NCBI GenBank assembly: GCA_903813345.2
Contig: CAIIXF020000001.1
Coordinates: 21,657,915-21,721,914, forward strand
Length of the DNA: 64,000 bases
DNA from: Owenia fusiformis
Lineage: Eukaryota > Annelida > Polychaeta > Sabellida > Oweniidae
Reading direction: 5' to 3'
Part shown: positions 13,760 to 60,100 of the stretch, piece after piece
Layout of the letters: the number at the start of each line of letters is the position of its first letter
How positions within the stretch are numbered: position 1 is the stretch's first letter
Program-made: the position numbers and the translations under genes
Notes under the pieces: model-generated
What the model was told of the DNA's origin: nothing
What the model saw: the letters and a program-made list of their open reading frames with translations, nothing else
Databases searched by the model: none

Positions 13760-16700
13760 CTAAGTCTTTCCAAGGTTTTCTTCCAATATGCCATTAGTCT
13801 GTGGGCTACTTGGAATTGGTGGGCTTTGGTGTTTATGCCGCACGTTGAACACTTCAGTGATTGCTTTGCGGAAACAGTGGAAATTGTAGTCTATAAGACC
13901 TGGAATCATAAAATAGGTTGATTTAGATAGGAGACAAAAAATTGGAGAAATTCTATCTTGGAAGGAGGTAACATTAGCCAAGTGGAACAGTGGAAGGGTC
14001 TCTTAAACATGTGTGATTATGCAATGCATATAAAACATCACTCCCACTGACCAAAACAAATAAAGAATTGAGATTATTGAAAGTAGTCTGCTGTATATGA
14101 CAAATGGTTGATCCCAAAATATTTCGCATCTATTGTATCAGCGACTTTATATCTTGCACATTGCCAACCCCTGTTGCATCCCATTTGATTCAGATGTACA
14201 AGATTCAGTGTTCAATTGGTAAGATTATCTTATACTAGCACTTTCTTAGCTCACTGTCTCCGTATTCATAAGGTTTCATTTTTTAATTCCTCATCCTCTT
14301 TTTCATCCAAATCTATCTTCAGATAATACAATGCAGTATTTATTACCTTGTCTTTCAAAGCTATCCTCTCTCATTATACAGACAATTGCTAAGAATTTGT
14401 TCACTTCCCGTAAATAAAGTATGGTTGCATTGTTCATTTTTATAATAGAAGATGATTGCTGGTCGAATGCACTGTTGTCTGTGTCCTCACTGCCACTGGA
14501 AAAAACATTTGAATGAGTTATTTTAGTCATTAACAATATGGCCCAAAACTTAGATAATATAGCCAGAAATATGTAAAAAAAAATCTACTAAAATCAGGAC
14601 ACCACTGTTGTTGACGATTTTAATAAAACACGTTTTGTGATGTCACAACATTATAAACTCATATCATTAAGAATCCTTCATTTAACCATAAACTAGAAAA
14701 AACAGAGTATCAAATCCCAATGTACTAAACATATTTTATTATCAAATCACTTGTCACTATGAATATTTCATGAGAGAAATAAACAGGCAATTCTGTTGTC
14801 TTCGTAAGGAAAAATCTACAACGATAATGGGAAATGACACCAAATCAGGAATTCTTTCTTCACTAGAGGTGCTACGCCCATATAAGGCAATGCAAACATC
14901 TGATTTTACTAACATCGTCATGTAATATTGAATTGTAGCAAATATAGCAATGGTTTTGTTATGAGGCTAACCAAAGACCTCCATCAATAAATGGTCATTA
15001 TGAAAATTAATCCATCAAGATCTTAACTTTTTGGGCTCTAGAAATAAAATATTTGTCCATGATAAAGATATTTTCCCCCTTAAACGTCACAATTCAGAAA
15101 AATAAGATTTCATTACATAAGCCAAATTTCCCTTACTTCAGCAGATTATCTACTCGACCTGTATAGTAATTGGTACAATAAAGGATGCTCTAATCTTACC
15201 CATATATACAAGACACATCTATGACTACATCTATCATGTCACAGCAAAGCTCATATGACTGCATGTCAACTGGTGATGAATCTGTGGCAATGTAGATTTT
15301 ACTGACGACATCAAACAGAAACGCTTTTTCTATACCAGAATTCTGGAATGAGAAAATATGTGTTTTGTTCTTTGGGGTGAATTGAAAATCCATTTGCCTT
15401 TGTGGTAATTTTTTAATCTCAACTTGTTGCATCTCCCTTTATGTATTTTAGTACACATGTATTAACATTTAACTAAGACATGTACAATGAACATACTCGT
15501 ACAGAATTACATCCAACTCTGGTATCAATATCATGTATTCATTTATTGAAAACTCGATCTGGATTGCATCAACAATTTCAACCTCTATTGAATATACACA
15601 TTCAATTTGTTAAACAAAATCAGTCAATATTTCTTAAAGTATATTCAGTTAATGCTCACATAATGATGACTGGGCTTATTATTTTGTGTGTTGAAATCTT
15701 AATTTCACAAAATATAATACTTACTGAAATAAATATGTTGAGTAGGTTTTCTAAGATGGGTAACTGTGGTATGAGTTTCTGTACTACTTTACTGAACGCC
15801 TCAAATATTGAGTGGTCATATATACTAGTGAGGTAAAAACTGGAACAAAAAATTGTTTCAATAAATTCCAAAATGACATGTGATTTTATAATTCATAGAA
15901 TTAACATCAAAAATATATTTGAAGAAATTGTCCAAATGGGCAATTAAATGAAGATATATTTTGATTAACTTATTTTGTTCAAGGATCAAAAAAACATTTA
16001 TTGAGTTCCTAAACCATACGTACTGTTTTGACTTTGGTTAATATTATACTGTTGATAACTTTTGAGTGAAACAATGTTGGTCTTACCTAAGGTGAATTGA
16101 TTCTAAACCTGCATCTGCTAAGTCATCATTGGCACGCTGGTAAATGTCTCTTTGTGTCTCAATTTTGTGGTCATCTGATAATCCATCTACTTTATGGATA
16201 AAAACCTGGAAATGTATAAAGTTTATGGTATATCTATACACATCATCAAAACTATTATATAATCTGATATAAATTATTGGAAAAGAATAATTGAAAAATA
16301 TAGAAACTGACTACATTGGCTTAACTGTATTTCTTTACTGACTCTTTAGATGTCATAGCATGGAATATAAGTCTATACAAAAATAAATCTATTGAACTAC
16401 ACCAAGCTACACTTGACTACACTAAGCTATCATTCTGCATGTATATGAATTAGGAAGAAAAGTTTATATTTATGCAATAAACCTACTTCAAATTTTATGT
16501 TTGGGTTGACTTTGTGTGCTCTGGATACAGTAGTGTGTAACCTTGCAAGAGCTTCCATATAGTCATCCTGTAAAAAGAACAGTGCACAACTGTTATGTAT
16601 CTGCTGGTGCAGCATTATAAGTCACAGGTATAAAAGCACTACTTGGAGAGGTAAAATGTGCTCAAATATTGTTCTTCAGAAAAGGAATACTTTTCATGTT

Positions 16701-19700
16701 CCAGAAAAATTGCCATGTCATTACTAAATGACAATTTCTGCTCTTTTCTAGCAAAAAATCACAGTTCATACTATTACTTTTAAAGACAGTATGATAAAAA
16801 ATGTCCAAAATGTAATTTTAACCCTCCAAGTACTACTTTCAAGGAATTAGAATGGATAGAGAGTAGAATATTGGAAGCAATCTTTCCAAAATTCGAGCCA
16901 GTATTTCCTCAAAAAAAAAGAATTACCAAATATAGAAGTTATTGTTGACAATAAGATGCAGAAATGTCTAAATTCATTAAAATTTCTTTTTTCTATTTTT
17001 GAGATTATCCTGAGATAAAGTCAGAACTCTTGGAAAATAACCGAGACATGGAAAGTGAATGCAAAATATATACATTTCTTTTATTATCTAAAGATCTTTG
17101 TAATTCATCAACCTAATTAACATCCTATTTGACATCCATCAACCTAATTAACGAATTATAAGCTCCAGTTTTCCACATTACTAACATTTCAGAATATTCC
17201 CCCTCCTCTATACTAGATTGAGACAAGTCACAGGTTTTATTTCAAGTCAAATATCTCTTGTTGCAATCATCTTGATGCAATCATTTAAGGCTGGCTGATT
17301 CCCTGTATCAATTTACCAGCCAATGTTTAATCCGCAAATATTTTCCATAGTAGGATCCCATATTCAAAGCTGTTTGGAGATTCTTACTTGATTCTAGCTA
17401 ACTACATGTAGTGTGATTTGAAAATGATTAAAAAAACATAAAGCATATTTCTAAATTTGAAGCTTCTCTTAAAATTAAAATGTACTTTTTAAAATTAAAT
17501 AGTATCAAAGCAGTATATGTGTATATGATGGACATCTGAAAAAGTGTTCATGCCAAAGACATATGGGAATTGGCAACATGCAAATTGGTTGGTGAAAACC
17601 AACAAAGTATGAGGTACATACAAGCCTTATAATAAGAAGCTTCCAACACATAACTGTGAACATGATGAAACAGGTACAGTGGCTGGAAAAGCATGTTGAT
17701 GAGGTGATCAGAATATGACAAGTACTAGGCAAAAGAAAATACTAAACCTGATATTGAAAGCACTAAAATGTCATTTGTTGAGCAAAATATTATCAGTACT
17801 TTGTTTAAAATGCAGATTTTTTCTCAAGTTATACCATCTTTTGCCAAGTATACTTCTAAGTAAAGGGGCTTGGTATTAATTCATTTGTATATATCTGAGA
17901 ATCAATGTTGTTAAGCACCATTCAAATGCTTACGTGAGGCCTGCATTACTGAAGATCGAGACCTGAGACATGAAGTACTGTCCCAGCCAATGAGTTTTTG
18001 AGAGTACCTCGCCCAGGAAGTGGGGACTTTTGAAATGCATATTCCTGATAGTAGAAAGGATGAGTCTGGGAATGAGTCTGGGTATCGACTTAGAAAATAT
18101 TGAAAATTGTAATGTCTGAAAAACCAACTCAATTACACATATTATTAAACTTCAATATCTTATTCTACTTCTGAGATTACAAAAATATTAATTTGTATCA
18201 CAATTGATGAAGAATATTGGCATCAAAGACAGTGCATATCACTTTGTCAGAATTGAAAAAAAAAATCAATGGCAAATATTAAATGAATTAATTATGCAAA
18301 AAGTTTGAAACTTATCTTCCAAAACATTGGTTACTTTCTTTGTATAGACATTGAATGGTATTTCTGGAAAAGTGAATTGGTGTTTATCTTGGTAATCAAG
18401 GGATTATAGTCACTCAAAGTTACTGAGCATCCAGTTTTGAGACTTCAATTGTGTTGGTGAAGTTACACATATTCCAGTCAAATTCATGCTGAGCACAACA
18501 TTCTGGTTTCAATTTTATAATCTCTATACGTGACCCTGGTGATGAAGAGTCAGAATCAATCAAAAAACCTAAACCGGAAAACTGTGCTCATTGTGAAAAC
18601 TAAAAATGAAGCAACTTTTTTTCTGATATTTCTCATATCAAATGGCAACCATCTTGTTTTTCCCCCTTCAAATTAAACTGGCGGGAAATTCAAAAATTTG
18701 AAAAATTTTTAATCCTTAAATATATTTTTCAAAAATATGATTTTCTCTTTAATTCTTCATGGGTCTTAAGTTATTTCTTCTTTGTATGTCATACATGTTG
18801 CCATTGGTGTTTTTTCTATGATAATGACTATTTTTTTGTTTGTTAAGATACTTATTCTGACTCTCAGTAGGGGGTTAATTATGCATCAAAACTTGTGAAA
18901 AAGTAAATATACTTATCAAATATAACTAGGTCAGTAATAAAAACCATATTTCACATACATTTGACTGAGGGACCAAAAGGGCATTTACCCAGACACATCC
19001 TTTTGACTACATTTCACCAGTCTAATTTTTATTTTGACAAAATCCCTACCCTTTCCTGAGTGGCAATCTCACGCAACAAAACCTTTGATTGGTGCATAGC
19101 GATAATAACAAGGCCCTTTAACAGATGGGATGAACATGAGATTTTGATGAATATAGGCAGTCTACAGCTAAAAAGCTGTGTATGTATCAAACCTGAGCAT
19201 CTATAATAAACAGTATACAATGTTGAGCGCCATATAGATAGTCCCAGTCTATATCTGGATTGTCTGTAAAGTTTGGCTGGCCTGGAATCTCTTGCAATGT
19301 AAACTGCACAAATGAGCCATTATCTATTTCTGCAAAAACAAACAGATGAGATTTAAGAAGTACAAATTTGGTTATACACATACCTGGGCATCTATAACAA
19401 ATATTAGGGCTCCACAACCTCCAAATATGGTTTCTGAGTCGAATGTTGGGTCAAAAAAGTCAATCTGTCCTGGGAAATCCCAAATTTGAAACTGCACAAA
19501 TGAACTATTCGACACGTCTGAAATAACAGAAAGACATGCATAACATTTCTTCAATCATGAACACTTTAGAAAGAGTTGCTGATAATGAAATTGAAACATT
19601 ACAACATTAGAGAAATGTGTTTGTCTATGATAACGATTGTTGTTTTTATACTTTTGTTTTCCTCATTTTTATGTGTACTATTCAGTACAGATTGAACCAT

Positions 19701-21089
19701 ACAATCTATAGATCTAGAAAAAATATTGCAAACAATTAGTGTATTGTACAAAGATCAAATGTATGTAGATCAAATCTAAAAAAGACTGATGACTCATACA
19801 GATTTCAAATATAGATGGCTGCATCATTACATTCTAAAACTTCTACAAACTCAGTTAATCATTTCCTAGACAGTTATTCTTGCAAAATGAATTCCACTTA
19901 CCATCTTTGACTATTTTGTTTGTGCTTTCTAAAAATAATGTTTCATTTGGTGACATTTTGTGGAAGACAACTTTTTGTATTGATGATTTGCCACTCCTGA
20001 AAAAGTCAAATGATATATATGAGAAAGCTGGAACAGTGAAACCTGAACATCTCTGTAATCCAAACTCCTCTCCATTATGAAAACCTTTTCTCGGTCCTAA
20101 TTTCAAACCTCCCATTCACTCCCATGTTAAAAAAAACTTGAATGTGAACACCTACTAATCCTTACACTTTTAGTCAGTTCCAGTACGATTCAGATTAGAC
20201 TGATCACATTTCAACAACAGGGGAAATAACCTCACACCGTACCTGCAGTTGTACCGTCCTTTAGGCTAACTTCATGTGATTATGATTTGCTAGATTGAAT
20301 TCCTCTGGGACCAGCCAAAAGTCAAATTAACCGGTGTTCACATTTCAAGTTTTTTTCAACATGTAGGTCAATGAGACCTAACAAAGTGGGACCGAAAAAT
20401 ATGTTCACACTGAGAGGTGTTCCGACAGAGGTGTCTGGATATACAGCGTCACCGTGTTGTAGTCTTTGACTCAATAGGCAAATAACCATCAAACTTTAAC
20501 AGCAAAATCACATTGAATGAACTTAATGATTCTGAAATTTTAAGACAAAATATGCAAGATTGACCACATTAATGAACTTTTCTTTGGTTATGTTTTTTGG
20601 ACATGTCTTATCTCCTCCTTTCCATTCCAACCTTCTATTATGGATTTTCATTCTTTCAAACAATCTTGTTGTATTTTACTCACTTAATGTTGAATCAGGG
20701 GTACCTCATATTGAAATAGAATTAATCAGATAAAAAGAAAAAATGATTCTGTCTAAATATGAAGAAACCAAAAAAATGAATATAAAGGGACAAGGATGAA
20801 GTGGCGATGATTACTCTTAGCTAAATGAAAGAGCAGCCCTTTCCCATAATAGGTGACTATTCCCATTTAGTGTAGGTTCAGGATGTATGAGGAATGAGGA
20901 TGGGACGACTGGTCGACATATGTGACAAAGCTCATACCTTCGTAATCCCATTAAGAGAATCCTTGGCTTTGAGTCTAATGCGGTTACAATTGTGTCATGG
21001 TCTGGGTCATCTGCTCCATACCCATAATCCTTAGGGAATGAACCAACTACATAGCTACCCGTCGTGAATCCTCCGTCTCCTTCATAAGA
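13760..21089 (-). CDS. RRAGC: Ras-related GTP-binding protein C/D (RagC/D)
   Basis: Nine consecutive exons join in frame: 21089-20938, 19996-19902, 19517-19384 (or the alternative 19329-19193), 16567-16487, 16205-16087, 15839-15725, 15342-15200, 14495-14347 and 13899-13760 (TAG). They give about 375 residues, near the size of human RagC/RagD. Visible motifs are the P-loop [15 protein letters not shown]3 WDFPGQ, the NKxD-type HKVDG, and a roadblock-like C-terminal half ([31 protein letters not shown]). Rag C/D pairs with Rag A/B on lysosomes to recruit mTORC1 when amino acids are present. The FPKDYGYG near the start matches the RagC N-terminus. No in-frame ATG lies just upstream and ttcattgcag precedes 21089, so the first codons must come from an upstream exon I did not find. 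One ancestral C/D gene is expected in invertebrates, so C versus D is not distinguished. Confidence 0.95.
19193..19329 (-). CDS. RRAGC: RagC/D exon 3B: alternative, mutually exclusive G3/switch II exon
   Basis: This 137-nt exon lies between tttttgcag and gtttgata. It has the same phases as exon 3A (G plus AA gives Glu; ends on a codon boundary). It encodes [18 protein letters not shown], a diverged middle ([16 protein letters not shown]) and LFIIDAQ. It aligns end to end with 3A with one extra residue, has no stop, and keeps NGSFVQF, PGQ and IDAQ while replacing the G3 Trp-Asp with Gln-Glu. If 3A and 3B were joined the frame would read AAA TAG at once; skipping both shifts the frame. Conserved framing argues for a working alternative exon rather than a decayed copy. 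Transcript support is not available here. Confidence 0.85.
19384..19517 (-). CDS. RRAGC: RagC/D exon 3A: canonical G3/switch II exon
   Basis: This 134-nt exon is flanked by ttatttcag and gtatgtg. It begins in phase 1 (upstream G plus AC gives Asp) and ends on a codon boundary. It encodes [18 protein letters not shown], then IDFFDPTFD and the strand LIFVIDAQ. It is nearly the vertebrate RagC/D sequence, including the Trp-Asp of G3. It is the first of the pair in transcription order, 54 nt before exon 3B. Confidence 0.95.
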
Positions 21090-23196: not shown

Positions 23197-24480
23197 CTAG
23201 AAAAACAGCAACTCCACGGAGTAGCAAATCCCACCGAACAAAACATGTTTTGATAAAAAAATTGAGCCAAATTCATCCACTGGTATTTGAATTATCAAAG
23301 ATTATGTCTTTATGAAACATGGTTGCCATTTTGAAATTCAGCTGTCATCTTTAGATTTCTTCTTTAGCAGAGAATGGAATTCAGCTATCGCCTTTAAAAT
23401 TTCTTCTGAAGCAGATCTCCTTTTTCCCTAAACATCAGCATATAAAATTGGAACCAAATCCATTCACTAGTATTTGAGTTATCATTAATTACGTTTTTTT
23501 AGAGAAAAATCGCGGCCATTTTGAAATTCAGTGGCCATCTTGAAAATTTATTTTTGAGCAGAACATTTTTGTCTCTAGGCATCAGCATATAGAATTTGAA
23601 CCAAATCAGTCAACTGGTATTTGAGTTATCAAAGGTTATGTTCTTTTATGAAAAATGGTGGCCATTTTGAAATTTAGCTACCACCTTGAAAATCCCTTCT
23701 CGAGAAGAGCTCCTATGTCCCTAGGCATCATCATGTAAAATTTGAACCAAATCCATTCAATTATAATTGAGTTATCAAAGATAATGTTTTTTTATGAAAA
23801 ATGGCCGCCATTTTATAATTTAGCTGCCATCTTAAAAATCCTTTCTTGAGCAGAGCTCCTATTTCCCTAGGCATCAGCATCTAAAATCTAAACCAAATCC
23901 ATTCAATGGTATTTGAGTTATCAAAGATAATGTTTTTTTACGAAAAATGGCCGCCATTTTGAAATTTAGCTGCCATCTTGAAAATCCTTTCTCGAGCAGA
24001 GCTCCTATGTCCCTAGGCATCGGCATCTAAAATTTGAACAAAATCCATTCAATGGTCTTTGAGTTATCAAAGATAACGTTTTTTTACGAAAAATGAAATT
24101 TGGTGGCCATCTTGAAATTGTCTTCTTGAGCAAGGCTCCTTTGTACCAAGGCAACAGCATATAAAATTTTAACCGAATCCATTCACAAGTATTTGAATTA
24201 TTAAAGATTATATTTTTTCCGAAAAATGGCCGCCATTTTGAATTTAGCGGCCATATTGAAAATTCCTTCTCGAGCAGAGGTCCTACACCCATAAGGCATA
24301 AGCCTATAAAATTTGAATGAAATTGGTCAACCGGTATTTGAGTTATTGCCCGGACACACGAACGGACGAACGGACAGACGAACGGACGGACGAACGGACG
24401 GACGAATGGACGGACGAACGGACGGACGGACGAACGGACGGCTTTTCTATATCCCCCTCGAACTTCGTTCGGTGGGATAA
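23197..24480. mobile_element. Inserted repeat element with ~145-bp internal tandem units and a GGACGGACG tail
   Basis: The left end carries GGAGTAGCAAATCCCACCGAAC and the right end GAACTTCGTTCGGTGGGATA, giving CCCACCGAAC/GTTCGGTGGG inverted ends. Inside are about eight ~145-bp units, each with GCCATTTTGAAATT, GAGCAGAGCTCCTAT, AGGCATCAGCAT and TTGAGTTATCAAAG. A (GACGGACGAACG)n array follows at 24352-24441. Both strands of that array are open, but only as simple-repeat peptides. A remnant of the left end occurs near 2617-2670. Confidence 0.8.
24352..24441. repeat. GGACGGACGAAC simple-sequence array
   Basis: About 90 bp of imperfect GGAC/GAAC tetranucleotides at the right end of the 23197-24480 element. 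It is open in several frames for compositional reasons only. Confidence 0.9.
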
Positions 24481-44989: not shown

Positions 44990-45103
44990 GAGATGTGTAC
45001 ATTATATAGAGACTGTTCTATGATGAAAAGCCATAGAAGTGCTTCATACCATCATAGCAACGGAGACTCATAGAATGTTCCAGAATCACAGGGCCATACC
45101 GCC
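44990..45103 (+). promoter_or_regulatory. EXTL3: EXTL3 5' leader in the first coding exon, with upstream ORFs
   Basis: The acceptor tttgtttttcag ends at 44989. The leader has an ATG at 44993 opening a 26-codon uORF that stops at 45071-45073. A second ATG at 45075 is out of frame and runs past the main start. The main ATG at 45104 is in a strong context (GCCATGG). Two uORFs suggest leaky scanning or reinitiation at this gene. Confidence 0.55.
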
Positions 45104-48100
45104 ATGGCTTTTTCCGATGAATACCACTCCCGTAAGATCAGCTTCCAGCGGTGGTTAACACATGTGAAACTCTCCAGACTGATTGGAATTCTCCTAGTGA
45201 TTCTGATCATAGTTCCATTAATCGCACATTATTATATCTCAAACATTGGCTCAGATGGACTCGAAGGTGAAGGTCACAGGACGAGGTCGAAACTTGACCA
45301 TATTGAAGATTCTCCGAGCCTCAAATCATCCGACTTGAAGTTTCGAATTGAGGAACTGAGACGGATAAAAGCAAGCGTGAATAATGAACTTCGCGATTTG
45401 GAAAACACGAGGCAGAAACTCAATGCTGAAATCAGTGGTTATAACTCACATATTGAGAAACTTAAGCATGAATATGAGAGTACAAACAAAGACTTGGACC
45501 AGTTGAAATTGACAATGCAGAACACACGGTTAGAACAGGAGGATGTTCTAAAGCGTAATATGCTAGAAATGCAGCTGCCACACAGGATCCTCCCATCCCT
45601 TGAGGACTCCATACACATTGATCCACCAAAGGCTCACACAGCGTGCGCCATGCATACCTGCTTTGATTACTCCAGGTGCTCAATTTCATCAGGATTTCCC
45701 GTTTATTTTTACAGTCCCCTTGACTACACCCTCACCAAGACACCTCTACATCCCTTCATCAAGTCCTCAGTAATGAATGCATTTAATTCAAATCCCCACT
45801 CCACATTTGACCCCCATATTGCCTGTATATATGTCATCCTGATTGGAGATCTCGAAAAAGACAATGAAGATTACTCTCTATTAGAGGAGAAATTAAAAAA
45901 TCTGCCATATTGGCATGGCGATGGACGCAATCATTTATTATTAAATTTAGCTCATGGTCACACTTCGAGAGATATATTCGAACATGTAAACACTGGGCGA
46001 GCAATGATCGTCCAATCAACATTTATCAGTAGTCGTTTCAGAGCTGGTTTCGATGTAATTATACCGCCATCTTTAGGAATATCTCATGGTGATTCATGGG
46101 AAGGATTACCCATGCTTGTTCCTGCTAGAAGACAATATCTCCTCACATTTCTCGGGGAGTATAACCAACTGAAATCTTTCACCAATAAAGCTGAAGAATT
46201 CCAATCTCAGGGTGCTGCTGGGAAAACATCACCACGGCAACAAAGTGTGCAAAATGACTTGATCTTTAGGTTGAAAAATAATGCGGGGAATAACGACCAA
46301 AATCAACCAATTATTAACAGTAATAGAAAACTATTAAGTACAAATGAACGGACGTTAAACAATGACTTTCGGGAACTTATTAACTTAGAGAATGGAATTG
46401 TTGAAGCTTTAAAAAACATGCAATCAAAACACAGTCAAGATGGATTTTATTTTGATTTTAAATGCAATGGTGATGTAAGTGTTGGACTGAATGCTGAATG
46501 GGCACTGTGCCTCCCTGAACCTAAGCGTCATGAACTTCTGGAGAAATCCACTTTTAGTCTCATAATTGCCCCCACTAATTACAGTATTATATCTAGTGTG
46601 CTGACACAAATTAGGATATTTGAAGCAATAAAATATGGTGCAATACCTATTATACTTGGGGACTACATACAGCTCCCATTCAATGACTACCTCTTGTGGA
46701 AGGATGCAGTGGTTCAACTCCCTAAATCTCGTATAACAGAACTGCATTTTATCATACGTTCATTCATCGACAATGATATTTTAGCACTTCGTAGGCAGGG
46801 TCGAATATTTTACGACTCATTTTTCTCCTCAACAAAAAACATTATTGATACACTATTGGCTGTGTTTCGTACAAGACTACAGATACCTGCACCTCCTATC
46901 AGAGATGAACCGTCCCCCAATGTGTTCAATGCCAGTTTCGTTCCACTACGTGATGAAAATGTAGATATACAGACAGAAGCTGATGATATTCTGGGCCCTA
47001 TTGAATCTCCACTGCCTTCTCTGACATATAGGCAGAACTTTACATTTAGTTACAGAGTGTTTAACCAGCCAGGGGACTATCGTCACTCCTTCCCCTTCAC
47101 TCCCTTCATTCCAGTCTTACCTGCTGAGGCAAAGTTCAAAGGTTAGTGCTTCATTACAAAAGTGCTAGTGGGACTTAATCCATTGAGGCCTACAGTGCCG
47201 TTTTTTAAATAATATGTTTTTTTAAATTATTTTTTTAAGATTTATGATTTTTTTTTTACGTCATCTACATGTTTATTATTTTGATGAGGAAATTGTCATC
47301 ATAATGTATTTTCATTACTAGCATATATTAATAGCTGTATTCTGATGTAAGCCAGCTGTTTTCAGTGATTCTACGTAACAACTAAATGTGGAAATGGTTG
47401 GGATAATTTCATCAAAAGATGATGAAGGAAAAGCATTCAGATAATTAAATCAGTAAGCCAGTGAAAAGGAGGAATTTGCCAAAATTGCCGAACTTGGTGA
47501 TGTAAATAATGTTGCATTATCCATTGGTAGAATACTTAAACCAATTGTGACTACCTTTTAGTGACTTTTAACTCATTTTATATCTCATAAATTATAGGGT
47601 CTAGTCGAGGGTTCCGACCCATAGGCAAGGGAGCAGGTGGTGCAGGGAAGGAGTTTAATGAGGCCCTTGGAGGAAACTTTCCAAGGGAACAATTCACAAG
47701 TAAGTTTTGAATTCATCACTGTCAACCAATATATGAAGTGTGCATCACAAGGATGTCCATATATTGAGATATATTAGATCTGCATGATGTTGATTTATCT
47801 TAAGTTTCATTTCAATTTTATTTCTATAGTTACCAATAATTAATAGAATATTTCCCATATTTTACATAACATATTCACGCGGTCCTAACTTCGACCGTTA
47901 ATTTGAATTTTTGACCTACCAGATGTTCGAAAATCAAGGATTCATGTCTCATACTGCACCGTTTTTCTTCAAACTTATACTATTAAAAGCAAAACAAAAT
48001 TGCCTTTCTGTCGGTGCATTACTTTATTGTAAAGAGTCCCTCGTTCTAGCAGCGTTTTGGTCCCCAGCTGTTAGAAGACCTTCTTACAGCTGGGGACCAA

Positions 48101-51100
48101 AATGCCGCTGGAAGTAGGGACTCTGTTTAAGAGAATAATGTACCAACAGAAAGGGATTTTTGTTATGCTTTGAATGGAACAAGTTTGAAGAAAAACGGTG
48201 CAGTACGAGACTCGTAATCCTTGATTTTCAAACATCCGGTAGGTCAAAAATTCAAATTAACAGTCGAATTAGTACCGCGTGATATTGCACAATACAATCA
48301 TATATCAAATATTTCGATTGACATTTTCCAAATGTTTTGTATCCACATTTCTTTGAAAGTGGTGAACTACCTTAAAGTAGTTTCTAACGCTGTATATACA
48401 GGAACTGATCCATTGTTTCAGTTGTGATGCTGACATATGAAAGAGAGGCTGTCTTGATGAATGCTATAGCAAGGCTGAAAGGTCTGCCTCATCTGAACAG
48501 AGTGGTGGTTGTGTGGAATAGTCCCAAGCCACCTGCTGAGGATCTCAGGTGGCCTATCATAGGAGTAGATGTACATGTAAGAATATATAACTTCAGATAT
48601 TAAACAGCATTGCAGGTCAAACTTCTACGAACTTCTACAGATTTTCTACAAATGTTGCAAAAGACCAAGTCAGGAAAATGTTATGTAACAAACAAAACTA
48701 GGATAGTAAGTAGCATTGTTCTAACCTTCAACTGAAATGAACTTGGTTTGCCATACATTTCCATTCTTATGCTTAAATTAGCCTTCTTTGTTTGTCCAGG
48801 TGATTAGAACAGAGAAGAACAGTTTGAACAACCGTTTTCTACCATATGATGTCATAGAAACAGAGGCTATCTTGTCAATAGATGATGATGCCCATCTCAG
48901 GCACGATGAAATCATGTTTGGATTCAGGTAATGAATCTTTCCAGTCAAAATAAAAGTTGTATTGTTAACAGTAGAGAGATATCACACTTAAGAGAAATAT
49001 TTATGAAACCATCAAATGAGCTCTTAAATATGCTAAATGGAGAGATACAGCATATGTTCACTGGTTAACAGCCACTTGACTCAAAGTAAAGCTGAAAGTA
49101 ACATTGGTGGATCAGCCATTTGGAAAATTTGAGATTATAAGAGATGCTAACTTCTTTATACAACTGTACTAGTTTTTTCTGACCTAGCTTTTTTCATGAA
49201 TGAAGCTTTGCATCAAAGTCTATTGTTGATGTGAATTGCAGGCAAATTCAAAATTCTGTTTTTCTAGATTTCTTGTTTCTAAATGTGGTTCAGATTTATA
49301 GATGTCGCATTGGTATTACAGTATATTACAAAACATTGATCCCATTTTACCATGTAATGTGTGCATGCACATTTATTTGGCCTCAGAGGCAACAGCACAA
49401 CAACATGTATTTACCATACAGTATTATTTAGTTTTTATGTCACCACAAACATATGCATAATAAGTGTCATCAGTCTTATTGAAGCAAGCTGATTGTTAAC
49501 AAGCTTCATTTGGCAATTTTTTCAGGGTGTGGCGTGAGAATCGTGAAAGAATCGTAGGATTCCCAGGACGCTTCCATGCTTGGGATCTTGATCATGATAG
49601 CTGGTTGTACAATTCTAACTACTCATGTGAACTCTCTATGGTACTCACTGGTGCTGCATTCTTCCACAAGGTATTAATAAAATCACCTTCCACTCTCTTA
49701 GTCAAAATGAACCCCACTGTTATTAACATGAACTATTTTTTAATGAATTTTTATTAAAGGTTTATCTTAAGAGTATAAAATGATGCCATCGTACTGTACT
49801 CTTATGATTGCCATCGTACTGTACTCTTATGATGCATATAAATTTAGTTGTAAGAACTTGAATATTTTATTTGGAGTTTCTATTTTAATGTTTTGCAGTA
49901 TTATGCCTACCTATACAGCTATGTGATGCCTCAGGCAATAAGAGACAAGGTGGATGAATATGTTAACTGCGAGGACTTGGCTCTTAACTTTCTAGTCTCC
50001 CATATCACTAGACAACCTCCAATTAAGGTAACTATTTCACTCATTGATAAACACCTTCTATTAAGGTAACTATTTCACTCATTGACATACACAGTCCTAT
50101 TATGGTAACTATTTCACTCATTGACATACACAGTCCTATTAAGGTAACAATTTCACTCATTGACATACAACCCTCTATCAAGGTTGCAACTTCTCTCATT
50201 GCCAGACAACTCCCTATTAGGGTAACTGTTTCAAATGGCAAATATTCATGTTGTCCACTCTATAGTAAGGGATATACAGTGTACTCTTATGGTCATTAAT
50301 AACAAAACGTGTTCATCTGGCAAACACTTCTTTCTAGTGAATGACAGAACCTATTGATAGTGAACAAATTTCAGAGGAGAGTCAATTTATTTCTGTGTAA
50401 AAACCATCTGTGAGCTGAGCACTTTTTATGGTTCCATATTAGTCATTATACACAGGTTTTACTGTATAAAGAGTCAATAGAAGATGATATATACCGCATA
50501 TCATTTCACTTTCTTCATGTTTGTTTCTTTTGAAGTTTTATATTATATATATTGCTCTGAACACCCAATATAGGTTCGATAAACCAGTGAGTAAACATTC
50601 TAACTCGTGTAAAACCACATTTCTCGTAGACTCTCATGGCACTTTGTTGATGCACACTTGTCCTTAGCATCAACTCATCATAGTTGTACTTTTTGCAATA
50701 GTCTATTACAAAATTAACCATCAAATCAGCTAGTCCATTGCCCCTGTAATCAGTTGCTACAACCACACGCGTAAGTTCACCTCGCTTGCCAACATCCAGT
50801 TCATTTACACCAATAGAGCCAATAAGTTTCCCCCTGTGGAAGAGCAGCCATAATTTATGGTCATGTTCTGTCCAATATTCTACAAAATTGTGATAATCGC
50901 TCAGTTTGGACAGCTCCCAAAGTAGAACACCCCATACTAACAAGAAATACAATATGGAGTATAACCCCAACAGGAATATGAGTCCGTTCATCAATGAGTG
51001 TCTCATTTGGTATAAGGTTCCAGCTGCTAGTAATGCTAATACACTGCTAACCTTTGGATGGAATAATTTGCCTTTCATCATTATTGGAACTGGTTCAGTG

Positions 51101-54100
51101 TATGAGGTTAAGGCCATTTTCTTCACTTCTTCCCAGTTGTCTATATTTGGGTCAAACAGGCGTATCTCAAGTTCATCTCGTTTGACTCTTATTGGTGGTT
51201 TGTTGCTCATGTTGAATAGACCTAACATTGTGCCTGTAAATATAATCATTATGTGATTCATTTTCCCTCATTTATTTTTTTAACTTTAATTTGTGGTTTG
51301 TTGCTCATGTTGAATAGACCTAACATTGTGCCTGTAAATATAATCATTATGTGATTCGTTTTCCCTCATTTATTTTTTTACTTTTATTGGTGGTTTGGTC
51401 TTGATGTTGAATAGGTCTAACATTGTGCCTGTATTAATATAATCAAGCAGATTCCCTTATTTTTGAAAATTACAGTTTTGAATATTCAATAATTATTTCT
51501 TATTCAATATTCCGATAAAGCATTAGGAATTGTTTGGAACATACAATCGCTTTGAAATCTAAATCCCAAATGTTCAGGATAACTTTCAGAAATCAGTGAT
51601 CATGGTGTCATAGTGCAGTAGTTTAGTCATCATGTTATACTTACATCGAATCACTTAACCAGGTCTGCCTCCCTTCAGCATTTACTTTTTCTTTATAAAT
51701 ATCTGTTACTAAAAATCTTATTCATAGTCACATAGTTCACCTAGTCAAGTAGCATTCTCAACATTACAGTACATGAGAGTATACCAAGGACATGTTGACC
51801 TATCAATAGTGATTAGATGAGCATTGTACAATTGTGTCACATATGCACATAATATAACAACAGTACATAATGTCAAATGAATGATGAGCTCACAAAGTAA
51901 AACACCCCATACTAACAAGAAATACAATATGGAGTATAACCCCAACAGGAATATGAATGCTTTCATCAATGAGTGTCTCATTTGGTGTAAGATTCCAGCT
52001 GCTAGTAATGCTAATACAATGCTAACCTTTGGATGGAATAATTTGCCTTTCATCATTATTGGAACTGGTTCTGTGTATGAGGTTAAGGCCATTTTCTTTA
52101 CTTCTTCCCAGTTGTCTATATTTGGGTCAAACAGGCGTACTCAAGTTCATCTCGTTTGACTTTTATTATGTCACCACCAAAAGTGGTGACATATTGTTAT
52201 GGTCTCCGTTTTTATGTCACCACCAAAAGTGGTGACATATTGTTATGGTCTCCGTTTTTTTGCGACGGCGGTTGGCGTCCGGCGGTTGGCGTCCGGCGTA
52301 AGGCGGTTGGCGTCCGGCGTCTGTAACAATTTCTTACAACTTCCTATAACTTAACAAATACTGTTTAGACTGACTTCAATTTTTTTCTAAATCATCTACA
52401 TGTTCTCAGAAGTTCAAATCTGACTTTAGATTTGACATTTGACCTTCAATGACCTTCTCAAGGTCAAAAAGGTCTTTTTTCAACTTGCTTAACATTGACT
52501 AAATTTTTTTCAAAATCATCTACATGTTCTCAGAAATTCAAATCTGACTTTAGATTTGACATTTGACCTTCAAATCTGACTTTAGATTTGACATTTGACC
52601 TTCAATGACCTTCTCAAGGTCAAAAAAGGTCAAAAAGGTCTGTTTTCAACTTGCTTCAAATTGACTAAATTTTTTTTTCAAAATCATCTACATGTTCTCA
52701 GAAATTCAAATCTGACTTAAGATTTGACTTAAGATTTGACCTTCAATGACCTTCTCAAGGTCAAAAAGGGTCAAAAAGGTCTGTTTTCAACTTGCTTCAA
52801 ATTGACTAAAAAAAATTTTCAAAATCATCTACGTGTTCTCAGAAATTCAAATATGACTTTAGATTTGACTTAAGATTTGACATTTGACCTTCAATGACCT
52901 TCTCAAAGTCAAAAAAGGTCAAAAAGGTCTTTTTTCAACTTGCTTCAAATTGACTAAATTTTTTTTTCAAAATCATCTACATGTTCTCAGAAATTCAAAT
53001 CTGACTTTAGATTTCACATTTGACCTTCAATGACCTTCTCAAGGTCAAAAAAGGTCAAAAAGGTCTTTTTTCAACTTGCTTCAAATTGACTAATTTTTTT
53101 TTTCAAAATCATCTACATGTTCTCAGAAATTCAAATCTGACTTTAGATTTGACATTTGACCTTTAATGACCTTCTCAAGGTCAAAAAAGGTCAAAAAGGT
53201 ATGTTTTTAACTTGCTTCAAATTGACTAAAAAAATTTTTCAAAATCATCTACGTGTTCTCAGAAATTCAAATCTGACTTTACATTTGACTTAAGATTTGA
53301 CATTTGACCTTCAATGACCTTCTCAAAGTCAAAAAAGGTCAAAAAGGTCTTTTTTCAACTTGCTTCAAATTGACTAAATTTTTTTTTCAAAATCATCTAC
53401 ATGTTCTCAGAAATTCAAATCTGACTTTAGATTTGACATTTGACCTTCAATGACCTTCTCAATGTCAAAAAAGGGGTATTTTTTCATCTTGCTTCAAATT
53501 GACTAAATTTTTTTTCAAAAGCATCTACATGTTCTCAGAAATTCAAATATGACTATAGATTTGACTTAAGATTTGACATTTGACCTTTAATGACCTTCTC
53601 AAGGTCAAAAAAGGTCAAAAAGGTCTGTTTTCAACTTGCTTCAAATTGACCAAATTTTTTTTTCAAAATCATCTACATCTTTTCAGAAGTTCAAATTTGA
53701 CTTTACAAGTTCTCAGAAATTCAAATCTGACTTAAGTTTGAACTCATAATATTGTGAGCAACTAGGTGGTGACATTTTGTCATGTTAATGCCTTGTTTGT
53801 GGTTTGTTGCTCACGTTGAATAGACCTAACATTGTGCCTGTAAATATAATCATTATTTGATTCGTTTTCCCTCATTTATTTTTTAACTTTTATTGGTGGT
53901 TTGTTGCTCATGTTGAATAGACCTAACATTGTGCCTGTAAATATAATCATATGTGATTCGTTTTCCCTCATTTTTTTGAATATGATATTTTATCAAATAT
54001 ACACTTTGGTTTCTCATGAAATATGAGGAAAAAATTAAGCAGTTTGAAACTAAATAGACTGATTCCATAAAGACAATTTTTTTTTATTTTGTTGCTCAAG

Positions 54101-57100
54101 CTAGGATATTGTGATAGAATTATGTTTCATTGATTGCAGAATATTTGTTTCTCCTACTGATATATATTAATGTTGCTCTTTCCCAAAAAATGAGTGCAGA
54201 TAGACAATGTCTGGTTGGAGTGCTACACAAGGTTCTTGTCACATGCTCACTTTGTCACGAAACATGGCATATGTGCTCTTTTTCACAGAACAAAATTTTT
54301 CAGAACGCAGTCAATTTATTTCTGTATTTATTTATTTATTGTATGTTTTACTGTATCTAAAGAGTCAATAAAAGATATATGTATTCACACCCGGTAATCG
54401 TAAGAAATGAACGGAGGGGGGAGTATCTGATTTTTGCTAGAAAATTCAACAAATCTGAAAGATTTATTTTTTCAAGAGAAAGTTTACGATTGAATTGCTA
54501 AATGAATAGGTGCAGAACTCTGGGAAGTATGTTAGGTCTTGTCGGATTTCTTTTGAACTGATGGGCTTCTAAGATATAAGACCTATTAAAAAAGGCACAG
54601 CGTCGCCAATGTGCAAATGGCAAGGTTTCTGCTATAAATCCAGCAATAAGGGTCTACACAACCTGTGATAATACTTGTTAGTGACCTTATTATCACAAAG
54701 CTATTGTCATTGTTGTTTTTTTTAAATACGTTACCATACGTTATATAAAAAATAAACAAAAATAATAGATTTTGAATGGAGGGGGGACTGAACGGAGGGG
54801 GGGGGGGGTAATGTATGTATAAGGCATGTGATAAGAGATGTAACTTGATTTTATTTTGAATAATTCCAAATGTCCCTTTTTTCACTCTTCAGAGTTGTAA
54901 TATCCAGTTGTTACTGAGTCACTGCAGTTCATTTTTCAAATACACAAATTCGTGGAAATTTCTTCCACCTTAAAGTCATATTACTCCCCCCTCCCTTCAC
55001 TCCCCCTCCATTCGATTTTAATTATTTTCGATTATTTTTTTATCTAACGTATGGAAATATTTTGCGATAAAAAAAAGATCTTATATCTTAGAAGCATATT
55101 GGTTCAAAAAAAATCTGAGAAGACCTAACATATTTCACCGTGTACTGCACCTACCGTATTCTCTGTAATTAGCGCCCAGGGCGTTTAGAAAATTGAAAAT
55201 ACATTATTTAGACCATTCTAATAAGCGCCCATGTATGAAAGAAATCAGAAATCCCGAGGAATTTCATGTATGGCAATTTTTCTTGACAAGAATGCATTTT
55301 CTTCAACATATTTTTATAATAATATGACAAGTGCTGTTATTGGAGAGAATACGGTAAAGATCGCTTAGACAATATTGACAGTGGTTGAAGACCCGTCTAT
55401 GTCTAATTTATTTCCGGCACGCCCACTTTGTCATTATCGCCGATTACCTTCAATATGTCCACTAGAGACTGCTGGATATCGATCTAAAGTTATACATTAT
55501 TTCTAATTTGATGAGAGATCATCATTATTCGTGCAAAAGTCGTGTAAAAGTCGAGAAACATTAAAAAGAAACCAGAAAGTTCACGACCTTGACATGCGCA
55601 GAACATCTGCGCAGTAGCTTTTGAAATTTCTGAATGCCGATAAAGAACAATTCCTTCATTCATTATGGATTATTATGATTCCTCGATGTTTCTTGAACTT
55701 TGTGAAGCGGGGTGGGCACTTATTAGAGAGTGGGCGGTAATTACAGAGAATACGGTATTCATTTAGCCATTCAATTGTTAACTTTCTTTTGAAAAATAAA
55801 TCTTCCAGATTTGATGAATTTTCTAGCAAAAATCATCTGCTCCCCCTCCGTTCATTTCTTCCGATCACCGGGGGTGGTATATATCATTTGATTTTCTTCA
55901 TGCTTGTTTCCTTGGAAATTTTAAAGTATATGTGTTGCTCTCAACACCGAGTATAGGTTTGATAAAGTAGTGAGTAAACATTCTTACTCGTGTAAAACCG
56001 CACTTCTCGTAGATTTTCATTGCACTTTGTTGATATATAGTCGTAAATAGTACCAACTCATTATATTTATTCTTTTCATGATAGTCTATTACAAAATTAA
56101 CCATCAATTCAGCTAGTCCATTGCGCCTGTAATCAGTTGCTACAACCACACGCGTAAGTTCACCTCGCTTGCCAACATCCAGTTCATGTACACCAATAGA
56201 GCCAATAAGTTTCCCCCTGTGGAAGAGCAGCCATAATTTATGGTCATGTTCAGTCCAATATTCTACAAAATTGTGATAATCGCTCAGTTTGGACAGCTCC
56301 CAAAGTAGAACACCCCATACTAACAAGAAATACAATATGGAGTATAACCCCAACAGGAATATGAGTGCGTTCATCAATGAGTGTCTCATTTGGTATAAGG
56401 TTCCAGCTGCTAGTAATGCTAATACACTGCTAACCATTGGATGGAATAATTTGCCTTTCATCATTATTGGAACTGGTTCTGTGTATGAGGTTAAGGCCAT
56501 TTTCTTCACTTCTTCCCAGTTGTTTATATTTGGGTCAAACAGGCATATCTCAAGTTCATCTCGTTTTACTTTTATTGGTGGTTTGTTGCTCATGTTGAAT
56601 AGACCTAACATTGTGCCTGTAAATGTAATCATATGTGATTTGTTTTCCCTCATTTTTTTTGAATATGATATTTTATCAAATATACACTTTGGTTTCTCAT
56701 GAAATATGACGAGAAAATTAAGCAGTTTGAAACTAAAATGTAAACTAAATAGACCGATTCCATAAAGACAAGTTATTTTTATTTTGTTGCTCAAGCTAGG
56801 AAATTGTGATAGAATTATGTTTCATTGATTGCAGAATATTTGTTTCTCGTACTGTTATATATTAATGTTGCCCTCTCCCCAAAATTGAGTGCAAATATAC
56901 TATGTCTGTCTGATTGGAGTGGTACACAATGGCTTTGAAGTCTATATCTCAAAAGTTTAGGATAAAAGCTGTGATCACAGTATTGTTGCACAGTAACTTA
57001 ATAGAAATGTTATACTTACATTTAATCACTAAACCAGGTCAGTGTCCCTTCAGGATTTACTTTTTTATAATAATCTGTTACCAAAAAGTCTTTACTTGGC

Positions 57101-60100
57101 GCTCATACAATGTAGAGATCTTGTAAAAATGACAATGTTTATTAAAGTGTGCTTTTGACCTATATTTTGCTGATAAACCTTGCTCAGGTTCTTGTCACAT
57201 GCTCACTTTGTCATGAAACATGACATATGTGCTCCTTATCATAGAACAAAATTTTTCAGAACACAGTCAATTTATTTCTGTATAAAAACCCTTTGTGTAA
57301 ATGAACACTTTTCGTGGTCCCATATTATTCATTATACACAGGTTTTAATGTATCTAAAGAGTCAATAAAAGATATATGTATATTTCTTCCGATCACCGGG
57401 CGTGGTATATATCATTTGATTTTCTCTATGCTTGTTTCCTTGGAAATTTTAAAGTATATGTGTTGCTCTCAACACCCAATATAGGTTTGATAAAGTAGTG
57501 AGTAAACATTCTAACTCGTGTAAAACCGCACTTCTCGTAGATTTTCATTGCACTTTGTTGATATATAGTCGTATATAGTACCAACTCATTATATATTTTT
57601 TTTTCATGATAGTCTATTACAAAATTAACCATCAATTCAGCTAGTCCATTTCGCCTGTAATCAGTTGCTACAACCACACGCGTAAGTTCACCTCGCTTGC
57701 CAACATCCAGTTCATTTACACCAATAGAGCCAATAAGTTTCCCCCTATGGAAGAGCAGCCATAATTTATGGTCAGGTCCTATCCAGTATTCTACGAAATT
57801 GTGATATTCACTCAGTTTGTACATCTCCCAAAGTGGAATTCCCCATATTAGTAAGAAATACAGTATGGAGTATAACCCCAACAGGAATATGAGTCCATTC
57901 ATCAATGAGTGTCTCATTTGGTGTAAGATTCCAGCTGCTAGTAATGCTAATACACTGCTAACCTTTGGATTGAATAGTTGGCCTTTCATGATTATTGGAA
58001 TTACCTCTGTGTAGGGGACTAAGGTCATTTTCTTTACTTCTTCCCAGTTGTCTTTGTTTGGATCAAACAGGCGTATCTCAAGTTCATCTCGTTTGACTTT
58101 TATTTGTAGTTTGTTACTCACGTTGAATAGACCTAACATTGTGCCTGTAAATAATCATTATGTGATTCGTTTTCCCTCATTTATTTTTTACTTTTATTGG
58201 TGGTTTGTTGTTGATGTTGAATAGGTCTAACATTGTGCATGTAAATATAATGAAGCAGATTTTGTAAACCTTGACTATAAGACGTGTCTGAGTATGATAA
58301 AGTATCGTGAAAAAATTATTATTAAAGTATTATCAAAAAAGCAGTGATCATGTTGTCATAGTGCAGTATTTTAGTCATCATGTTATACTTACATCAAATC
58401 ACTAAATCAGGTCAGTCTCCCTTCAGCATTTACTTTTTTATTTTTTATAAATACCTGTTACTAAAAATCTTATCGTCTCTCATAAAATAAAGACTGTGTA
58501 TAAATGACCTTGAATATCAGACATGTCTCAGTATTGGGACAGCTTGGCCTATATTTTGCAGATGTCTTATTTAAAATATATTTACCTCTAAGTCCCAAAT
58601 GTTCAGGATGACTTTCAAAAAGCAGTGATCATGGTGTCATAGTGTCATTGTCTCTCATAAAAATAGAGATTTTGTTAAAATGACCTTGAGTATCAGACAT
58701 GTCTAAGTATGATAAAGTATTGTGTCAGCTTGGTCTATTTTTTCGTAGTCACATAATTCGCCTAGTCAAGTAGCATGAGAGTATACCAAGGACATGTTGT
58801 CCTATCAATGGTGATACAATTGTGCCACATAAACAGTACATAATGTAAAATGAATTGACAAAATTCGAAACTTGACATTCTAATGAAAATGACCTTTTTG
58901 ATTTTATTGATCAAATACTTAAAATGGTTTAAGAACCTGGCTGAAAATCATCTTGCCCATCAAACAAAATCTGTACAGTTATGTTGTATTCTTTGTAAAA
59001 TCAATAAATTATACCTTAATCGCCTACTCCCCCCTCCATCCTTTTTGTACGATCACCGGGCGTGACAGTTGTACATGTTTATCAAAAGATGCCACACAAA
59101 TTATTTGAAACTTCATATGGCTTAAGTATCATTGCTCAACATCTTGGTGATCACACAGGTAAAAAAGTATATCTGGGTCATAAAAAATGAATTGATTTTA
59201 GATCTTGAATAAAAAAAGTATTTAAAAACACCAATCGTATCATAATCAACATTGAATGAATCATTTACATTGGAATTTCTCCTTGACAACAAGTGTGACC
59301 TCATTTCATATTGTGATTCATCCCACTTCTTGATATAATGATGGAGTCATTGTGTGAAAGCTTGCCTTGATGACCTTTTCCAGTGAAATGAAATGTTTTG
59401 TTATTTTGAAATGCTTTGACCAGAATTAATGTTGTTATCAAACTGACAGATCTTTACTGAAAAATATTCAATATCAATTTTATGGTAACAGATAGTGATT
59501 TTTTAATTAAATTACTTGTAGATATTTGCTGATATATGAATGTATCTGGAATATTAGCTATATCCAGTATTTCAGTTTGAATTAAGTAGTTGTATTTTAA
59601 CAGTCATCTTCCATGTGGTAAGGTTAAGGCAAAGAGAAAAACTAGAGAATGTAAAATGTAAGATTGTAATATATGATGTATATCTTATCGAGGGGGGGAG
59701 ATTTCCAAAATATGACGCTTTGGTATTTGCACGTTCAATAACCAATTTTATAAACACCTCATTTGCCATTGAAATGAATCTCACAATCTTCCCTTTTTTA
59801 TGAGTATTCCCTACAACTTCGAGTAACTTCAAAACTATTACTGCAGTTTTGAAATAAACACCCTATCCACAATTTCACATTTTACTTTGTGCATCCACAG
59901 CACTGAGAGAGCACATGCACATGATTGTTCATATGATCACATCCTGCAATTTGATTGGACATCATATACTGTGGGATCCCTGAATACGATAAGATATGAA
60001 AGAATTGTGGGAGCTACTCACTCCTTCTGTATCATATCAGAACTTTTTGATTTTATGCTTGCCCCGAGTCATGCATTCAAGTGCATTGAATAAAGAGGTA

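Follow-up and report, generated by a model that had tools for sequence, protein, structure and literature searches.

The window, that is, the whole stretch of 64,000 nucleotides of Owenia fusiformis DNA that was analysed, carries on its minus strand a RagC/D gene extending from approximately 21089 to 13760, for which nine exon positions were modelled. The third of these is present twice, as two adjacent exons designated 3A and 3B. The features of the gene are as follows.

20938 to 21089, minus strand: exon 1 as modelled, coding up to ...ILLMGLRR; no exon bearing the start codon was located further upstream
19902 to 19996, minus strand: exon 2, SGKSS... to IVKD, ending in phase 1
19384 to 19517, minus strand: exon 3A, 134 nt, canonical G3/switch II with WDFPGQ
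19330 to 19383, minus strand: intron between 3A and 3B, 54 nt
19193 to 19329, minus strand: exon 3B, 137 nt, alternative G3/switch II with QEIPGQ
16487 to 16567, minus strand: exon 4, whose acceptor is common to 3A and 3B
16087 to 16205, minus strand: exon 5
15725 to 15839, minus strand: exon 6
15200 to 15342, minus strand: exon 7
14347 to 14495, minus strand: exon 8
13760 to 13899, minus strand: exon 9, containing the stop codon

The coordinates and lengths of the two copies, the intron of 54 nt between them, their shared phases and splice sites and the position of the next exon at 16567 had been given by an initial annotation of this DNA, and all were confirmed. The other introns of the gene measure between 247 and 2625 nt. 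When transcripts were spliced in silico, inclusion of either 3A alone or 3B alone left a frame open to the same stop codon, yielding 375 and 376 residues, respectively, as modelled. Isoform A is a canonical RagC/D protein and scored 285.5 bits against the Gtr1_RagA family model. Isoform B scored 256.8 bits, matching positions 1-232 of the 232 in the model, and the seven best PDB sequences for it were all RagC chains. The G1 and G4 motifs and the C-terminal domain are encoded by shared exons and are thus kept in isoform B.

Elsewhere in the window, a tandem array of similar GNAT acetyltransferase frames occupies positions 50515-58154 of the minus strand; three of these match PF00583 and a fourth GNAT-like frame (51745-52140) appears truncated. 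On the plus strand, an open frame of 690 amino acids between two stops (45074-47146) contains an Exostosin_GT47 domain, apparently in one exon. Positions 23378-24440 hold tandem repeats of 146 bases (about 5 copies) and, after them, a short ACGAACGG-type repeat.

A search of the assembly (498 Mb in 525 contigs) with the Gtr1_RagA family model yielded nine matches: three to the RagC/D exons in the window, four on contig C4, one on C6 and one elsewhere on C1. Three of the four C4 matches fall in a stretch that reads as RagA; the two single matches outside C4 and the window had E values of 6.5e-5 and 5.3e-4 and were assigned to no gene. On the basis of this one family search, which was limited in the number of its candidates, in an assembly that may have gaps or withheld stretches, there is apparently a single RagC/D gene. 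Examined by eye, the RagA gene (C4:2131865-2133215) has an intron within its G3 motif that splits the glycine codon before the catalytic glutamine (WDCGG, then Q), so that its exon borders are unlike those of the RagC/D gene. When the 501 bases around 3A and 3B were searched as DNA against the assembly, the one match was the query itself; an artefact arising from a second locus was rejected on this ground.

The 3B peptide, when searched against the entire assembly, found itself and 3A (E 3.1e-4, 43% identity), and E rose to 0.65 for the match after these; within the window, the match between 3B and 3A had an E value of 4e-8. The local alignment score of the two exons was 99, compared with a mean of 22.9 (standard deviation 4.9, maximum 56) in 5000 shuffles. 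They align end to end, as had been proposed, provided that one inserted codon is allowed in 3B. When the ten exon peptides were searched against the window by tblastn, no match apart from self-matches and the 3A/3B pair had an E value under 0.03, and no other duplicated exons of the RagC/D gene were found there. Scans of genome_contigs and viral_contigs, which are prokaryote and viral collections, yielded no relative. Identity to human RagC residues 103-147 is 37/45 for 3A and 17/45 for 3B, and 19/45 residues are identical between 3B and 3A, indicating that most of the change occurred on the 3B side. One other reading frame of 3B contains a single stop codon, near its start, and an open frame by itself is therefore weak evidence; a chance open frame was nevertheless rejected for 3B, since homology to 3A, phases and splice sites all occur together in it.

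Exon 2 leads into either exon in phase 1, both exons finish in phase 0, and both are bounded by GT-AG splice sites. Joining 3A to 3B in silico gives ...IDAQK* (CAG AAA TAG), with a stop at the second codon of 3B, and skipping both gives ...KDG* (GGA TGA), in which GGA is directly followed by the stop. Both outcomes agree with the initial annotation, which held that splicing of 3A to 3B leads at once to AAA TAG and that omission of both exons shifts the frame. The criteria for mutually exclusive exons set out in PMC3228551 are neighbouring exons of similar length, compatible splice sites with the same frame phases, and homology; for 3A and 3B these are lengths of 134 and 137 nt, GT-AG sites with equal phases and 19/45 identity. 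In the control reported in that source, 90 of 16,180 non-exclusive exons satisfied the same criteria. The assignment of 3A and 3B as a mutually exclusive pair, likewise made beforehand, is well supported by the frame logic, the 54-nt intron, the homology, the splice sites and the conservative nature of the replacements in 3B.

The intron between the two exons contains a sole YTNAY branch candidate, predicted from the motif, the adenine of which, counted from the 5' splice site, is nt 37 (near position 19347). Any branch point placed at least 15 nt from the end of this intron would be at most ~39 nt from the 3A donor. Steric interference has been described at donor-to-branch-point distances under a threshold of about 50 nt, as in the exclusive choice of exons 4a and 4b of OGDH (PMC7969005), and the distance from the 3A donor to the candidate branch point falls below this value. 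According to the same source, the OGDH intron measures 118-131 nt in birds and mammals and its branch points are remote from the acceptor; the intron described here is 54 nt in its entirety. An intron of this size would not allow a branch point to sit far enough from the 3A donor to be usable, making the joining of 3A to 3B unlikely.

Intron lengths elsewhere in the assembly were estimated from 59 introns of myosin and kinesin genes, which had a minimum of ~118 nt and a median of 304 nt; the 3A/3B intron is less than half the length of the shortest. The sample was taken from neighbouring family matches, comprising 55 of 92 myosin rows and 53 of 144 kinesin rows picked by eye for a neighbour in the same gene. 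Further rows, mostly same-strand neighbours, provided 51 pairs, some sharing rows with the first sample. Twelve of these passed its filter, with a minimum intron of 181 nt; the smallest raw gap among the 51 pairs was 98, a value that reflects overlapping profile ranges and for which the estimate is 185. Because profile matches can bridge short introns, three suspicious matches were fetched and examined by eye, and no intron of 50 nt was found inside them. Short introns as a common feature of the genome were not seen in this sample, which represents two gene families and not the whole genome. Two arrays were observed among the same matches. In a myosin heavy chain gene (C9:37986009-37994334), 12 tandem matches each cover approximately positions 18-84 of Myosin_head with peptides of the T(Y/F)SGLFC...(I/V)NPY type; the cluster apparently offers 12 alternative exons for a single segment and points to the presence of such tandem exons at other loci of the genome. 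At C2:23266359-23269174, 18 matches to positions 290-327 of Kinesin are spaced at 159 bases (one step of 158), and a tandem array seems to have captured a piece of a kinesin exon.

The splice sites of 3B are intact. Its donor, CAG/GTTTGA, has 6/9 consensus bases, a score shared with five of the eight remaining donors; of the ten acceptors in the gene, that of 3B has the highest pyrimidine content. A TGCATG element is located at 19535-19540 on the minus strand, preceding 3A by 18-23 nt; 13 such elements occur on that strand of the window, two of them between 19901 and 16568 (19535-19540 and 17577-17582). We take the element upstream of 3A to be an Rbfox-type motif, as a lead only. An Rbfox-type site in such an upstream position may favour exon skipping.

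Taken together, it is likely that steric exclusion plus frame is the cause of mutual exclusivity. The 54-nt intron would hinder splicing of 3A to 3B, and a transcript with both exons or with neither would meet an immediate stop and probably be lost, which would leave one of the two exons in each productive mRNA. The frame data also lend themselves to a different reading, in which 3B is a poison exon whose inclusion after 3A leads to AAA TAG and, through nonsense-mediated decay, to lower levels of RagC/D, its own protein being irrelevant. The stop in the second codon of 3B would serve this purpose, and that frame of 3B contains three stops. The same short intron, however, makes the joining of 3A to 3B on which it depends unlikely, and 3B, read in the phase that matches 3A, preserves its protein sequence better than neutrality predicts, something that a poison exon would not require. 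We regard this reading as very improbable.

Whether 3B is maintained bears also on the possibility that it is a disused duplicate, decaying as a pseudo-exon. Neutral decay was simulated with 3A as the ancestor, under an AT-rich model with the base composition of introns, to a nucleotide divergence of 41% and with the inserted codon of 3B dropped. The BLOSUM sum over the columns of the 3A/3B alignment is 110; the simulated mean was 34.3 (standard deviation 16.3, maximum 106) and none of 20,000 runs reached the observed value. The 3B frame stayed open with a probability of about 0.09-0.11, and an open frame jointly with the identity, a simpler measure, had a P value of 0.00175. The probability of at most one indel ranged from 0.08 to 6e-5, being set by the assumed indel rate, and is not strong by itself. 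Identity between the exons by codon position is 0.56, 0.71 and 0.51, highest at the second. The exons align (0/1000 shuffles), while the 54 nt flanking them on either side do not (P 0.44 and 0.61 against shuffles).

In favour of decay, 3B has many replacements. Those at residues common to human RagC, 3A and yeast Gtr2 (F124, E131, F134, G138, A139, L140 and V143) count against the main reading of 3A and 3B as an exclusive pair. A pairwise codon model gave a dS of about 1.3 and an omega of 0.46, not significantly below 1 (2 delta lnL 2.05), and the NG86 method gave a dN of 0.55, a dS of 0.78 and a ratio of 0.70; with only 45 codons, tests of the omega type have little power. Against it, the frame is open, the acceptor and donor are intact and the similarity to 3A was not matched under neutrality. 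Neutral decay of 3B was thus held unlikely, the replacements being too conservative, although the omega test alone is non-significant, and a pseudo-exon is considered improbable. Our reading is that selection at the protein level appears to have acted on 3B, which also appears to have evolved fast.

We consider it quite probable, from these properties of the sequence, that 3A and 3B arose by tandem duplication and form a mutually exclusive pair, of which each productive mRNA would carry one, isoform B having a new G3/switch II. That 3B is spliced in at all we infer.

Exon 3B replaces the equivalent of residues 103-147 of human RagC. Residues are given in what we take to be the human RagC numbering, which is consistent with the numbers of the PDB chains. 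In this numbering T90 and W115 fall where PMC9481461 puts them. The substitutions in 3B comprise W115Q, D116E, F117I, D122N and F124T together with one inserted residue; switch II is changed over most of its length, as is the beginning of the following strand. P118, G119, the catalytic Q120 and the terminal IDAQ are retained. The alignment bore out the contrast drawn by the initial annotation between a canonical WDFPGQ in 3A and QEIPGQ with a diverged switch II in 3B; of the motifs that it listed as kept in 3B, IDAQ stands, whereas NGSFVQF is not strictly kept, since 3A has NSSFVQF where 3B has NGSFVQF. The aspartate of the canonical G3 motif DxxG is missing from 3B, which reads EIPG. Yeast Gtr2 reads ELPG at this position, within MELPGQLNYF (PDB 3r7w, 4arz and 6jwp), and likewise has Glu in place of Asp and no Trp, the preceding residue being Met.

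Mutually exclusive duplicated exons around G3/switch II also distinguish Rab6A from Rab6A', which differ at three residues; 3A and 3B differ at 26/45, including the G3 Asp and the Trp before it. Tandem duplication of mutually exclusive exons is a well-described class. In genes for heterotrimeric G-alpha subunits (preGNAI, preGNAQ, GNAQ/GNA11 and GNAO), local exon duplications, several of them independent, have been described at the interfaces with G-beta-gamma, RGS proteins and effectors (PMC5896119), and these likewise give alternative segments in a GTPase, there in alpha subunits and here in a Rag. Among the Rag genes, RagB-long, a brain splice isoform of RRAGB exon 4, gains 28 residues in switch I and has low GTP affinity and changed GAP binding (PMC9481464). 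As predicted for the present gene, alternative splicing there affects one of the switch regions in the G domain of a Rag, but the change is a switch I insert in a small Rag, whereas here a duplicated exon would swap the G3/switch II of a large Rag for one that is one residue longer. Mouse RagD has splice variants of 51 and 45 kDa, with two bands in rat (PMC10830385, crediting Zhang et al. 2021). There too a large Rag gene has two splice variants; the text available from that source does not state the differing segment, and a difference of ~6 kDa does not fit an exchange of exons of equal length.

Alternative G3/switch II exons in RagC/D were not found described in the openly licensed literature, among the matches listed. 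PMC13113295 holds both 'mutually exclusive exon' and 'rragc', and in the portion available rragca is just a differentially expressed gene. In term searches, Rag and GTPase terms were absent from PMC5740500 and PMC9013439, and 'rrag' was absent from PMC9714508 and PMC9741552.

As to function, it had been stated initially that human disease mutations in RRAGC and RRAGD fall in the WDFPGQ segment, and this proved correct, P119 of RagD being presumably the proline of that motif. RagC W115R, from follicular lymphoma, raises lysosomal mTORC1 signalling (PMC9481461), and disease mutants of RagD, including P119L/R of a kidney and heart syndrome, are reported to be impaired in GTP binding and auto-activating (PMC10185561). 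These mutations lie in the segment that 3B changes, and W115 is also replaced in 3B; by comparison with the point mutations, 3B has Gln instead of Arg at 115 and keeps the proline. It had further been stated that Raptor and TFEB-type clients read the state of RagC/D through the switch regions. This holds in part for TFEB, whose dependence on state is partly due to a clash with switch I (PMC9931586). However, the residues of RagC named there as contacting TFEB (V80, I220, Y221, D290 and D294) all lie outside 103-147, as do those contacting Lamtor1 (Y150, M151, L154, R198 and D202), and the RagC-Raptor contact of earlier structures is described as lesser and without stringent nucleotide dependence (PMC9931586). 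Since the named contacts are outside exon 3, 3B is better read as altering nucleotide handling than these partner surfaces; of the two effects initially suggested for it, nucleotide handling or partner choice, the former is favoured.

The active form of RagC/D is described as nucleotide-free or GDP-loaded (PMC10185561). By analogy, isoform B may hold GTP less well, or couple less to its GAP, and thereby adopt a GDP-like active state regardless of nutrients or FLCN; we hold this to be the likeliest reading, if somewhat short of an even chance. MELPGQ is native to Gtr2, so QEIPGQ need not weaken GTP binding and a dead GTPase is not implied. Isoform B could instead be a functional GTPase that has a Gtr2-like G3 and cycles normally between nucleotides; the change would then lie in how the GAP (FLCN-FNIP or LARS1) or RagA recognises switch II, affecting the speed or input of the response and not its resting state. 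The exon mechanism is then the same, and only the functional step differs. Like MELPGQLNYF of Gtr2, 3B has Glu for Asp, an aliphatic residue for Phe and Asn at 122, and it retains Gln120 and Pro118-Gly119. Its switch II, on the other hand, is one residue longer and diverges strongly from that of RagC and of Gtr2 alike, and Gtr2, the product of a separate fungal gene, is nearer in this segment to 3A and to human RagC (16/37 identical residues each) than to 3B (11/37). A working GTPase of this kind is plausible, though we would give it clearly less than even weight.

A further alternative is that isoform B pairs with RagA but is silent in signalling, acting as a dominant-negative protein or sponge. 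RagB-long provides a precedent, since in that isoform an alteration of a switch by splicing lowers GTP affinity and produces a GAP sponge (PMC9481464). For a large Rag, however, the activity of the nucleotide-free or GDP-loaded form means that loss of GTP would tend to activate and not to silence, and we think a sponge unlikely.

If isoform B does signal in a GDP-like state, splicing would supply a second large Rag, for which mammals use two genes, RRAGC and RRAGD. Tissue-regulated choice between 3A and 3B might then yield a second RagC/D that has its own G3/switch II and signals without folliculin; splicing, and not the RRAGC/RRAGD pair as in mammals, would in that case govern the growth and TFEB-type outputs of mTORC1. 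This extension is tentative and, in our estimation, rather doubtful. More generally, mTORC1 sensing may be altered through 3B, as the initial annotation suggested.

RagC/D forms the lysosomal nutrient-sensing arm that underlies folliculin-dependent phosphorylation of TFEB (PMC9931586), and the segment of it equivalent to 3B is one that human disease mutations hit. Splicing could make two versions of this sensor, the use of 3B being a prediction from the gene structure. If the prediction is true, a natural exon that rewrites G3/switch II and leaves the named TFEB and Lamtor1 contacts untouched would amount to a built-in experiment on the reading of nucleotide state by Rag proteins, and splicing would be doing the job of gene duplication in the Rag pathway.
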